Shown: positions 56,698 through 61,922 of the stretch, piece by piece
How positions within the stretch are numbered: the stretch's first letter is position 1
How the letters are laid out: each line of letters starts with the position of its first letter
Source: Microcaldota archaeon
GTDB lineage: Archaea > Micrarchaeota > Micrarchaeia > Micrarchaeales > Micrarchaeaceae
Assembly: GCA_028866715.1 (NCBI GenBank)
Contig: JAGWHO010000002.1
Span: 1 to 64,000 of the forward strand
Direction: 5' to 3'
Length of the DNA stretch: 64,000 nt
Position numbers and translations under genes: made by a program
Notes under the pieces: model-generated
Database searches by the model: none
Seen by the model: the letters and a program-made list of their open reading frames with translations, nothing else
What the model was told of the DNA's origin: nothing

Positions 56698-56745
56698 CTA
56701 ATCCTTTTAATTGTTAGATTCCATACCTAATCCAAAGTGACTTTT

Positions 56746-57084
56746 ATGGACAGGGACCAGATAGAGAAGATGACCAGGGACTACCAGGTCATGCAGGAGC
56801 AGCTTCAGTCTCTTGCAATACAGAAGGAGCAGTTCTCGGGCCAGAAGGAGGAATTGAAGGAGGCGATGTCAGAGCTCGAAAAGGCTGCCGGGAAGATATA
56901 CGTAGCAATAGGCGGCGTGATGGTCGAGCAGAAGAAAGATGAAGCAGTCAAGAGCGTAAAGGAGAGGCAGGAAACTCTTGATATGCGCCTCTCTATAATA
57001 ACCAAACAGCTTGACGACCTGTCGAAGAAGGAGAAGTCTCTAAGGGAAGAGATAACCACGGTTCTCAAGGACATGAAGCAGTAG
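56746..57084 (+). CDS. pfdB: Prefoldin subunit beta
   Basis: A 112-residue chaperone subunit: two coiled coils (residues about 5-42 and 66-108) joined by a beta hairpin (GKIYVAIGGVMVEQKKDEAV). Six subunits hold unfolded proteins for the thermosome. A TATA-like TTTTAATTG lies upstream, so it has its own promoter. Confidence 0.88.
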   Translation: MDRDQIEKMTRDYQVMQEQLQSLAIQKEQFSGQKEELKEAMSELEKAAGKIYVAIGGVMVEQKKDEAVKSVKERQETLDMRLSIITKQLDDLSKKEKSLREEITTVLKDMKQ

Positions 57085-57089
57085 ATCAG

Positions 57090-58100
57090 ATGGAGCTGCT
57101 CACCTTTGATGGCCTCAAGTCGCTGCTTGAGGAGCACAAGGAAAAGCGTGTGATGCTCACATTCCACTCCATAGGCGACACAGACTCTGTCTCTTCCGCA
57201 TTCGCGCTTTCGGAGTACATGAAAAATGCCACCATAGCAACTCCGGACTTCATAACGAACAACTGCAAGAGGATGCTGCAGCGCCTCGGGTTCCGCGAAA
57301 GCATGATAAAAACAGAATTCGACGACGGCGCGGACCTCATCATAATGCTCGACGTCAACAATTTCGAGGAGTGCGGGCCGTTCGCGGAGAGGCTGGCGCA
57401 TTTTGGCAAAAAGATTTTGGTAATAGACCACCACGCCAGGAACGAGATCAGCGGCCATGACGTTCTGTCGTTCAACGACGAGGGCTACAACTCCACAACC
57501 AGCATAGTGTACGACGCTCTTGAGCGCCTTGGGCACACGGTAGGCGGGAAGACCGCGGCCCTAATCGCAATCGGGATAATATCGGATTCTGCAGACTTCA
57601 TAAACTCCTTCCCGAAGACGTTCACGCAGGTGGGCAAGCTCCTTGAGACCTCCGGGATGGGGTACTCCGAGCTCCTTGAGAACATAAGGCACGTCGCAAG
57701 CCCGGAGAGCAGGCTCGAATCGATCACCGGGCTCTTCGGGGCGACCGCAGAGGTGAGGCACAAGCTCCTGTTTGTCTACGGCAGGGCGTCGTTCCATGCC
57801 AACCACTTCGCGGACAATGCGCTGAAGGTCGGGGCCGACGTATCCATATTCTACGCGATAACAGGCAACGACGTGACCTTCTCAGCAAGGCTGCGCTCGC
57901 CCTTGGACAAGGAGCTAGGGATACACCTGGGCGTCATAATGAGGGATCTCGCCCCAGTAATAAACGGCACAGGCGGCGGCCATCCCTGCGCCGCCGGCGT
58001 GTACGGGAAAGTGAGCGGAGACAACTACAAAGAGCTCATAAACAGGTTCATATCGGAAATCGGCACGAGGTCAGGCCAGTCTTCGAAACACAGGAGTTAA
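57090..58100 (+). CDS. DHH-DHHA1 phosphoesterase (RecJ/NrnA-like)
   Basis: A 336-residue metal-dependent phosphodiesterase. The DHH domain shows the early Asp motif HSIGDTDSVSSA (the usual DxDxx is GDTDS), IMLDVNN, VIDHHARN (about 113-120) and SDSADF. DHHA1 ends with GTGGGHPCAAG (about 291-301). Relatives degrade short oligonucleotides or cyclic dinucleotides, or act as archaeal RecJ/Cdc45-like partners. Follows prefoldin by 5 bp. Confidence 0.9.
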   Translation: MELLTFDGLKSLLEEHKEKRVMLTFHSIGDTDSVSSAFALSEYMKNATIATPDFITNNCKRMLQRLGFRESMIKTEFDDGADLIIMLDVNNFEECGPFAERLAHFGKKILVIDHHARNEISGHDVLSFNDEGYNSTTSIVYDALERLGHTVGGKTAALIAIGIISDSADFINSFPKTFTQVGKLLETSGMGYSELLENIRHVASPESRLESITGLFGATAEVRHKLLFVYGRASFHANHFADNALKVGADVSIFYAITGNDVTFSARLRSPLDKELGIHLGVIMRDLAPVINGTGGGHPCAAGVYGKVSGDNYKELINRFISEIGTRSGQSSKHRS

Positions 58101-58127: not shown

Positions 58128-59942
58128 ATGGCTGTGGTGGTGGCCAACGAGACGCTTGCCGGCAAGTACAATGTCGGCAAGAGCCTGAGCAAAGAGGAGG
58201 CAGTCCTCGCGATCGACAAGATGCTGCTTAGGCTTGAGACCTCATGCGGCCTTACACCTGAGAAGGCGAGGCAGGCGCTATTGAGATACAAGGAGGACGC
58301 GTCGTCCGACAGGGCCGTGTCCATCGCAAACGACCTGGGCAAGAACCTAATAGATGCCTGCAAGATCGTGAACTGCATAACCAGGTCTGAGAGCGAGCTC
58401 TTCAACAAATCAAGCGGAAACATAATCAAGCGCCTTACCCCGAAGAACACCTACACCAGCGCAAGGTATCGGATAGGCGATGAGGAGCGGCCTGCGCCAA
58501 AACCCAGGCTCCATCCGGTCCAGCGCCGCCATGCCGCAGACCAGGGGCAGCCCGGGGCTGAACCCAGGGGGCGCCCCGGCCCGCAGAAAAAGCTCACAGA
58601 CGAGAACATACTTGAGATCAACACAAGGTGGGGCAACGGCGAGAAGCCAAAGGACCTTGCAGGCAAGTTCGGCATAAGCCTCGGGTACCTGTACCAGAAG
58701 TGCAAAAAGCCGAGGCAGGAAGGGAATGAGAACAAACACAAGCCAGAATCCGCGTACAGCCTTCCCAAGGACCTGGCGTCGCGCGCTGCAACCCCTATCA
58801 TGATAGAAAGACTTACTCGATACGTCCACCAGAAGCTGGCCAATGAGGTAGCAACAACGTACCGCATCAGCGTGGATGGGGCGACTACCGCAATAGCAGC
58901 GTACATGGCAAACGCCACGGAAGATGAGACGTTCACCGCAACACACATTGACCTGGGCATCATCCGCAGGATACGCAGCAGGCTGGAGTTCTTGGGGGTG
59001 GAGACGCTTGGCACCGGGTCCTACGGCAAGTTCGGCAACGGCAAGGAAACAAGGATGCCAGGGCCAACCGCAGGGCAGCGACAGGCCCGGCGGAGCAGCG
59101 ACGCGCAGTACCTCAAGTCAAAAGCCGAAGAGCTGGCCGTGAAGTTGAATGTGCAGAGCGGCAAGGTAGAACGCCTGCTGCAGTACTATTTTGGCGGCGG
59201 CAACAGCATATACAAGGAAGCGAAGAGGCTCGGGATGCACGACAGGGCAGCGCTAAGGCTGTCGGTCTTGGTCAATGAGGAGGTGCAGAGACCTGCGTCA
59301 GGGCGCGCATCAAATCCGATCCAGAACACCAAAGAGCGCGCCGCCCAACAGCCCAACCCGGACACCGGCGGCGCAGAGCGCGCAGCGCCACGGCAAGCCG
59401 AGCTCCCGAGCGCAAGGCCCACTGCCGATCAGACCAAGACGTTAAGCGGGGAATTCCACCTAACGCACACGCAGGCGGAAAACGCGCTCACGTACTATCT
59501 CAACATGAAAAACAACCCGTATGAGATGTCGGAGCTGTCCGGCGTGCCGCTAAGCCTGTCATTCGAGGTATTCTCCTACATGGAAAGGGCCTTCCCAAGG
59601 AACGGCGCAGCACGCAAGGCCGAGGAAAAGGCCATCACAGAGGCGCGCGCAAACGCCAAGGCCGATGGACAGCCGCCCATCACGAACGGCAGAGCGATAT
59701 CCATGATATCTACCGCATGCGTCGTGTCCGGATACGCCGCCTCACGCGCGCTCGACTCCTACCTAAGCGGCGCAGACAGCTCGGAGGAGATAGCCGTCAA
59801 GGCAGAGCTTCCATCAAAGAAGGCGGTAAGGGTCCTGGCGTATATGAGGGAGAACATCCCGCGCATCAGGCCAGGAAGCGACGGCAATGCCGCAGGCCAG
59901 AGGGGAGAAGGCGCAGGCCCGATGAATCTGATACGAAAGTGA
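58128..59942 (+). CDS. Repeat protein with five helical modules and a resolvase-like HTH
   Basis: A 604-residue protein of unknown family. Five related modules of about 52 residues lie at about 33-85, 238-290, 334-386, 438-490 and 524-580. Each has a pattern of A-x-x-A/L-x-x-Y near its middle and a closing amphipathic helix (VFSYMERAFPR, VLAYMRENIPR). Between modules 1 and 2 is an HTH (ILEINTRWGNGEKPKDLAGKFGISLGYL in part, 161-188). Linkers are long, polar and probably disordered. It ends 4 bp before the Mre11-like gene. Confidence 0.6.
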   Translation: MAVVVANETLAGKYNVGKSLSKEEAVLAIDKMLLRLETSCGLTPEKARQALLRYKEDASSDRAVSIANDLGKNLIDACKIVNCITRSESELFNKSSGNIIKRLTPKNTYTSARYRIGDEERPAPKPRLHPVQRRHAADQGQPGAEPRGRPGPQKKLTDENILEINTRWGNGEKPKDLAGKFGISLGYLYQKCKKPRQEGNENKHKPESAYSLPKDLASRAATPIMIERLTRYVHQKLANEVATTYRISVDGATTAIAAYMANATEDETFTATHIDLGIIRRIRSRLEFLGVETLGTGSYGKFGNGKETRMPGPTAGQRQARRSSDAQYLKSKAEELAVKLNVQSGKVERLLQYYFGGGNSIYKEAKRLGMHDRAALRLSVLVNEEVQRPASGRASNPIQNTKERAAQQPNPDTGGAERAAPRQAELPSARPTADQTKTLSGEFHLTHTQAENALTYYLNMKNNPYEMSELSGVPLSLSFEVFSYMERAFPRNGAARKAEEKAITEARANAKADGQPPITNGRAISMISTACVVSGYAASRALDSYLSGADSSEEIAVKAELPSKKAVRVLAYMRENIPRIRPGSDGNAAGQRGEGAGPMNLIRK

Positions 59943-59946
59943 TCGC

Positions 59947-61164
59947 TTGAAGATAGCCATAGTATCGGATACGCACCTGGGGTACGAGCGCTTCGTCGAA
60001 GACGCGTTTGTCCAGGCGAAAGAGGCACTCGATCTCGCTAACCGGCTGGCAGACGCGGTCATCCTGCCTGGCGACATATTCGACAAGAGGTCACCGAAGC
60101 CTGACGTCATAGCGCAGGCGATAAACCTGTTCAGGGACCTATCTGAGAAGAGGTGGAACGCAAAGGTCGTCTCGTTCACGAGCAGGAACAACAAGGCGTA
60201 CACTGACGCGCCAGTCATAGCGATATCAGGAACCCATGAAAGGACGGCAGAGGGAAAAGACAATCCGCTGAATCTGCTGGGCCTTGCAGGCCTTCTAATA
60301 GACACAAGCGAATCAACTACAATAATAGAAAAAGATGGCGAGAGGGTCGCGATATACGGCCTTGGCGGGATAGCAGAGGAGAGGCTCAAGGAAAAGCTCA
60401 ATGAGCTCTCGCCGCAACCTGTGGGCGGTCTGTTCAGCATATTCATGTTCCATCAGTCGACATACGAGCTGCTGCCGTTCAGCGACGAGTTCATACACTA
60501 CGATGACCTGCCAAGGGGCTTTGATCTTTACGTTGACGGGCACATACACAGCAGGGTAGAGGATGTCGTCCACGGCAGGCCGTTCCTCATACCGGGGAGC
60601 ACGGTGCTCACACAGCTGAAGGACGGGGAACAGGAACCCAAGGGCTTCATGATATACGACACAAAGGCCAGAACCCATGAGTTTGTAAAGATCAATTCAA
60701 GGAAATTCGTAGTAAAGGACCTAAAGTTCGCGGACGCAGAACCTGAAGAGCTCTCAAGAAGATGCGAGAACGAGATAGAGGCGATACTCTCGTCGTCGGC
60801 AGACAGGCCGATAATAAAGCTGAACCTTGTCGGGACGATAAAAGCGGGATTCAACAGCTCAGACATGCCGATCCACGCGCTGATGCTAAGATACTCCGGA
60901 AAGGCCATGCTCAACATAGACAACTCGAAGCTCAAGAGCCCTGAGCTTGACGCAAGCATCGAGGGAATAAGGGAGAACAGGATAGGAGACATGCCGATAA
61001 AGGAGCTTGGCATGGGGATCTTCGCATCAAAGCTCAAGGAACTCAAGTTTGACGAGAAGATAAGATACTCGGAGCTGTTCAACAGGCTGAGCGCTGAGGG
61101 CAACAAGGAAAAGGTAATCAAGGAAGCCATGGACTTCCTTGCAGAATCGGCGCCAGTTTCATAG
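59947..61164 (+). CDS. mre11: Mre11/SbcD-like metallophosphoesterase
   Basis: A 405-residue nuclease-like protein. Phosphoesterase motifs: SDTHLG (7-12), GDIFD (42-46), GTHER in place of the usual GNHE/D (98-102), FMFHQ, and VDGHIHSR with the G-H-x-H. A capping or DNA-binding part and a helical C-terminus follow. Mre11 pairs with Rad50 in break repair; no rad50, herA or nurA is in the window. Starts (TTG) 4 bp after the repeat-protein gene. Confidence 0.85.
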   Translation: MKIAIVSDTHLGYERFVEDAFVQAKEALDLANRLADAVILPGDIFDKRSPKPDVIAQAINLFRDLSEKRWNAKVVSFTSRNNKAYTDAPVIAISGTHERTAEGKDNPLNLLGLAGLLIDTSESTTIIEKDGERVAIYGLGGIAEERLKEKLNELSPQPVGGLFSIFMFHQSTYELLPFSDEFIHYDDLPRGFDLYVDGHIHSRVEDVVHGRPFLIPGSTVLTQLKDGEQEPKGFMIYDTKARTHEFVKINSRKFVVKDLKFADAEPEELSRRCENEIEAILSSSADRPIIKLNLVGTIKAGFNSSDMPIHALMLRYSGKAMLNIDNSKLKSPELDASIEGIRENRIGDMPIKELGMGIFASKLKELKFDEKIRYSELFNRLSAEGNKEKVIKEAMDFLAESAPVS

Positions 61165-61262
61165 AACGCCCGGCACAGACCAAAATAACAAACCACCATC
61201 ACGAAACTGCACATTTCCATTATCTATAAATATCTCCTAAGTTGCAAGTAATATGTGATGCA

Positions 61263-61922
61263 ATGCCAAAAGGTGCGCTAACACAGCAAACTACGGAATT
61301 CAGGACAGCTGGCACTGTCAGGATATCAAAGGTAGAGATGCCGCAAGATAAGGCAATCGCAGCGACAAAGAACGCAAATATGGAGGGCTATCACATGGCA
61401 GACAGCATTGAGCTTGCCCTCCTCAAGGAGACAAACCCGGAGGTCAGAAGGCTTCTGGAGGACGCCTATGTCATGACACCTGAGAAAGGGCTCAAGAGCT
61501 CCGGCCCATGCGAGATACTTGAGAACGGCTCCCGCAGACGCTTATCAGAAAAATCGTGGGGCGACCTCAACAAAGAGGAACAAGACAAGCTTTGGGAAGC
61601 GTTCCTCAAGATCCCGATTGCAAATAGGGCATGGGAGTATGAAGGAGCAGGCCCTGTCTTCGCCGGCTACTACGACTGGTACGGGGGGCTCGGCTTGAAT
61701 GCGGACGGGAGGCTCGACTTCGATGCGGGCAGGGACGCCGACAGCCGTGCTTGGGTGGTTTGGGTGCCAGATGCCCGCGGAGCGGGCGCGCCGCAGAACG
61801 AAGCATCTCTGGAAGAACTGCTCAGGAATATAGAAAACGCTTTGGAGAAGTCCGAGAAGGACAACATAGTCCTGTCTGGGCTAGTCGCAAAGCTCAGGGA
61901 GAGGCTGAGAACTACTTCTTAG
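61263..61922 (+). CDS. Hypothetical protein, 219 aa
   Basis: A soluble acidic protein. The centre is aromatic and Gly-rich (AWEYEGAGPVFAGYYDWYGG, about residues 123-142) and resembles small beta domains; the C-terminus is a coiled coil (LEELLRNIENALEKSEKDN). No family recognised. ATG 61263 follows TATA CTATAAATAT (61222-61231) by about 35 bp. Its end overlaps the convergent rpl14e by 11 bp. Confidence 0.5.
   Translation: MPKGALTQQTTEFRTAGTVRISKVEMPQDKAIAATKNANMEGYHMADSIELALLKETNPEVRRLLEDAYVMTPEKGLKSSGPCEILENGSRRRLSEKSWGDLNKEEQDKLWEAFLKIPIANRAWEYEGAGPVFAGYYDWYGGLGLNADGRLDFDAGRDADSRAWVVWVPDARGAGAPQNEASLEELLRNIENALEKSEKDNIVLSGLVAKLRERLRTTS

Follow-up and report, generated by a model that had tools for sequence, protein, structure and literature searches.

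Nbs1 and CtIP/Sae2 are non-enzymatic or largely disordered accessories of Mre11. In other archaea, herA and nurA usually lie in the mre11-rad50 operon, and their products serve DNA-end resection (PMC8708640). Outside of repair, Cbp1 of Sulfolobales is an archaeal protein built from HTH repeats, a CRISPR-repeat-binding protein with three HTH domains (PMC10883916). Here we compare with these systems a modular protein encoded directly upstream of mre11 in a genome (878 kb, 25 contigs, 94% complete) whose relatives are Candidatus Micrarchaeota.

Like HerA and NurA, the modular protein is encoded with mre11, but those two are an ATPase and a nuclease, whereas it has no enzymatic domain. Its likeness to the eukaryotic Mre11 partners Nbs1 and CtIP/Sae2 as accessories of this kind is one of analogy only (PMC8708640); a Pfam scan of the modular protein found, in difference from them, neither FHA/BRCT nor the CtIP/Sae2 C-terminal domain. 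Cbp1 is comparable as an archaeal protein in which several duplicated HTH domains with linkers bind DNA along its length. However, Cbp1 consists of three ordinary HTH domains with short linkers and acts on CRISPR arrays, and going by the descriptions, our protein is set apart by five four-helix modules plus one ordinary HTH, by long basic linkers and by its place in an mre11 operon. The ordinary HTH is present once; the repeated four-helix modules may each be two HTH hairpins. TrmBL2, an archaeal chromatin protein with HTH-type DNA binding, ranks first among the PDB structures resembling the module in fold, but the match is not significant (E = 0.69, TM 0.49) and TrmBL2 is a single large protein with no string of beads.

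The modular protein and its operon

In the window (the whole stretch of DNA analysed, 64,000 nucleotides), four co-directional genes on the + strand form the run prefoldin-like - DHH - modular protein - mre11. The prefoldin-like subunit gene (56737..57084; Pfam Prefoldin_2, E=1.5e-14) opens the conserved run prefoldin-DHH-mre11, an order common to most relatives. It is followed by a gene for a RecJ/NrnA-like DHH-DHHA1 phosphoesterase (57090..58100; Pfam DHH 1e-15, DHHA1 3e-9), for which the NCBIfam RecJ, NrnA and pyrophosphatase models score far under cut-off. An ATG-started ORF (58128..59942) then encodes the modular protein of 604 aa and pI 9.6, and mre11 extends from a TTG start at 59947 to 61164. 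The gaps of 27 bp after the DHH gene and 4 bp ahead of mre11 are as the initial annotation had given them. GC at codon positions 1-3 of the ORF (0.57/0.47/0.74) is typical for coding DNA here. Downstream, 78 bp 3´ of mre11, lies a 226-aa ORF (61242-61922, +) for which PADLOC had no match and Pfam none that passed its cut-off.

Five repeats are indeed present in the protein, and their length of ~60 residues (helical core of 56) slightly exceeds the 52 or so first estimated. Module 1 comprises residues 19-88 (58182..58391, +), module 2 residues 222-292 (58791..59003, +), module 3 residues 327-388 (59106..59291, +), module 4 residues 432-491 (59421..59600, +) and module 5 residues 520-579 (59685..59864, +). 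A putative resolvase-type trihelical HTH (residues 153-197; 58584..58718, +) lies between the first two; its sequence matches are weak (HTH_7, E=0.06; phrog DNA invertase, E=0.026), and AlphaFold gives it a pLDDT of ~85 without alignment. The intervening sequence is rich in K, R, P, G, A and Q, in keeping with the disordered linkers proposed earlier.

At the sequence level, the repetition is real and exceeds chance. In pairwise comparison with shuffles, z is highest for modules 4 and 5 (8.3) and is 6.5 for modules 3 and 5. In a leave-one-out HMM test, modules 1, 4 and 5 each outscore all 1000 shuffles; modules 2 and 3 are weak taken singly. An HMM built solely from modules of a sister genus (see below) gives the whole window protein 16.9 bits, the best of the 415 shuffles listed (1000 made) reaching 9.7. 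The modules found no fitting family in Pfam, NCBIfam, PHROG, PADLOC or PDB sequence searches, which bears out the initial impression that no family of this layout has been described, and they would constitute a new small domain family. A match to the designed toroid 4yxx (E=1.7e-6) was lost with a larger alignment, and we take it as a chance likeness of helical repeats. Phage, plasmid and defence libraries yielded nothing useful for the modular protein: there was no phage match, and the sole plasmid match (E=0.1) lies mainly over the resolvase HTH part.

Structure prediction agrees with helical modules plus an HTH. From an alignment of 15 modules, AlphaFold folds module 4 into four helices with high confidence (pLDDT 95.4, pTM 0.81); the full chain, predicted without alignment, is poor (mean pLDDT 38) and confident at the HTH only. 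Fold searches of PDB and viral structures with the module gave no significant match, and the leading PDB neighbours, likewise insignificant, are mostly HTH/HhH DNA-binding proteins. The module may be composed of two consecutive helix-turn-helix hairpins in tandem. A test for internal duplication into two hairpins of ~26 aa is suggestive only, as 0 of 500 shuffles reach the observed sum in one direction, which does not hold for the other.

Occurrence of the modules in related genomes

Inspection of the sequence between DHH and mre11 in the closest relative revealed the same module, distributed over three small genes. The arrangement recurs in both species of this sister genus: the genes encode 85, 81 and 233 aa in G012 (isolate REEA50, L080) and 94, 85 and 218 aa in G035 (L079), with 1, 1 and 2 modules in each. 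The three genes, orfA, orfB and orfC, are co-directional and the last one overlaps mre11 by 4 bp. The identical layout in G035 rules out that the G012 genes are one long gene broken by a frameshift. Module 1 of the window protein is closest to orfB and module 2 to orfC, while modules 3-5 resemble one another; judged by these similarities, the long gene looks like a product of fusion and duplication, or the short genes like products of fission. The G012 assembly contains the orfC-mre11 junction twice (C31, L081; C38, L080), with protein identities of ~87% for orfC and ~98% for mre11, probably because the bin combines two strains.

Purifying selection acts on the genes of the sister genus. Between the two G012 strains, dN/dS is 0.21 for orfC and 0.03 for mre11; between G012 and G035 it is 0.24-0.43 for orfA, orfB and orfC. 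These ratios cover the sister-genus genes; coding support for the window gene comes from its codon-position GC. Module proteins diverge far more than Mre11 (32-35% identity for orfC where mre11 has 86%).

A plain protein search of genomes from the family and order found no relative of the modular protein. With a module profile, strong scores among 85 family and 301 phylum genomes were obtained only in the window genome (G000), G012 and G035, which leaves 298 of the 301 phylum genomes without modules at a convincing score; the remaining matches reach no better than E = 4e-4 per genome, which is what chance would give over 301 genomes. Within the three genomes, modules occur nowhere outside the DHH-mre11 slot. 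At 62 mre11 loci from GTDB genomes, the order prefoldin-DHH-mre11 is common, with a DHH-mre11 gap of at most ~150 bp and no module, and some loci have prefoldin-mre11 without DHH. The 398-bp gap of G026 holds no module remnants. A conserved DHH-module-mre11 operon throughout Micrarchaeota is thus ruled out by profile searches and mre11 loci alike. Adjacency to mre11, whose conservation in Micrarchaeota the initial annotation had proposed to check, is kept in all relatives that have modules, but these make up just one sister genus. Because most Micrarchaeota have nothing between DHH and mre11, the module protein is to be seen as a lineage-specific addition and not as a core partner. In the mre11 phylogeny, one gain is enough to account for the three genomes with modules (support 69).

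In other genera, unrelated genes sometimes stand immediately upstream of mre11 (L032/L003 in G010, L109, and L004 in G006). By names given from reading the sequence, they include an SPFH/stomatin-like gene on the opposite strand, a RidA-like gene together with a membrane protein, and a NUDIX-like hydrolase.

Mre11, Rad50 and NurA of the lineage

The neighbour described at first as Mre11/SbcD-like proves to be a true Mre11 (405 aa; 59947..61164, +), a phosphoesterase of calcineurin type with Metallophos over the Pfam cut-off, PDB Mre11 structures matched with E down to 5e-19, and orthologs in 32 of 32 relatives. NCBIfam Mre11_Sulfo scores 88 bits, yet the NCBIfam equivalog cut-offs are unreached. 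Of the metal-binding motifs (DxH, GD, GNH(D/E), H, GHxH), the protein retains D8-H10, D43, H169 and H199-H201. At motif III it has GTHE where GNH(D/E) is usual, and the same holds in Mre11 of Micrarchaeota, Diapherotrites and Aenigmatarchaeota (alignment A6; L024, L147, L151, L152, L156). As GTHE is common to these groups, their sequences suggest that a DPANN subfamily of Mre11 may have changed a metal ligand.

No rad50 lies near the locus, as had been noticed; however, the same genome encodes Rad50 on another contig (C19; 769 aa, CPVC zinc hook), and a gene of like size is found in the other family members searched. The earlier conclusion that the modular protein is the nuclease partner for want of Rad50 therefore falls. 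With Rad50 present, there is no gap for the modular protein to fill and it is ruled out as a replacement, and in the phylum genomes without modules at a convincing score, Mre11 works without them. NurA had no match in 12 family and order genomes including the window genome, despite the presence of Mre11 and Rad50. The lineage may have a DUF87 ATPase of HerA type. It is a matter of speculation whether the DHH enzyme beside mre11 stands in for NurA. Given that herA and nurA usually accompany mre11 and rad50 elsewhere, the operon seen here departs from the usual archaeal layout.

Possible roles of the modular protein

Our preferred reading, to which we give somewhat less than even chances, is that the modular protein is a lineage-specific, multivalent accessory of HTH type that binds DNA and assists end processing by Mre11 and the DHH enzyme. 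One classical HTH and five new four-helix modules on positively charged flexible linkers would give multivalent DNA binding. Made together with Mre11 and the DHH phosphoesterase, the protein would coat or bridge DNA near ends and might thereby recruit or stimulate either the DHH enzyme or the Mre11 complex, for which Rad50 is encoded elsewhere; it would act as an accessory and no substitute for Rad50. We infer that the protein binds DNA, touches Mre11 or the DHH enzyme and acts at ends; of these, DNA binding is likely. Of the initial proposal of binding beads with a repair role, the modules and the gene order stand, and the repair role remains as inferential as before. This reading is suggested by how closely the gene is packed with DHH and mre11 on one strand, by the slot being kept in the sister genus though Mre11 is far better conserved than the module proteins, by purifying selection there, and by the absence of modules elsewhere in the three genomes. 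The module proteins of all three genomes are moreover basic (pI 9.5-9.9), compared with the acidic Mre11 (pI 5.4) and DHH (pI 6.0), and a confident four-helix module with mostly DNA-binding PDB neighbours joins a predicted HTH. Against it speak the restriction to two sister genera, where one insertion and simple inheritance would suffice, the unrelated genes in the slot in other genera, the lack of a significant fold match and the presence of Rad50, which leaves no missing partner to explain. Two of the modules, 2 and 4, are moreover weakly acidic, and across the modules no conserved basic patch or surface column was seen.

In the main rival explanation, the protein would be a nucleoid or regulatory protein particular to this lineage and built of many HTH units, sitting in an insertion-tolerant slot and co-transcribed with mre11 with no functional tie to it. 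A single gain on the mre11 tree and the varied genes adjoining mre11 elsewhere fit such a protein, TrmBL2 as top (though not significant) fold neighbour points the same way, and Cbp1 is a precedent for HTH repeats outside repair (PMC10883916). It is harder to see why slot, strand and close spacing were kept while one long chain was exchanged for three short ones, or the reverse; we regard this explanation as quite possible and rank it close behind the accessory reading. The acidic modules and the missing basic column could instead indicate modules that bind protein and not DNA, that is, a flexible scaffold whose small helical beads, UBA-like or of a similar kind, gather Mre11, DHH or Rad50. 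The acidic Mre11 and DHH would suit a basic scaffold, but the strongly basic character of the whole proteins in all three genomes, the mostly DNA-binding fold neighbours and the weakly matched HTH of DNA-binding type make it unlikely. Least probable by far is a drifting, functionless remnant of a mobile element or recombinase. Fast evolution, restricted distribution and the weak resolvase/DNA-invertase similarity of the HTH are what such a remnant would show; however, only the HTH part matches serine resolvases/invertases, no match to the resolvase catalytic domain was found in the protein, purifying selection acts on the sister-genus genes, and the phage and plasmid searches gave nothing beyond the one plasmid match over the HTH.

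Taken one step further, the accessory reading would define a new, lineage-specific class of archaeal Mre11 accessories: a string of four-helix DNA-binding beads, made either as a single long chain or as three short ones, that acts together with Mre11 and the DHH enzyme on DNA ends in a lineage with no NurA detected. We consider this proposal doubtful at present. For biochemistry, the sister genus offers a compact test case in its single-module proteins of 81-94 aa. If the proposal is true, archaeal DNA-end processing would gain a multivalent Mre11 helper that is not an enzyme, and the case would show how such helpers can be invented inside a single lineage.
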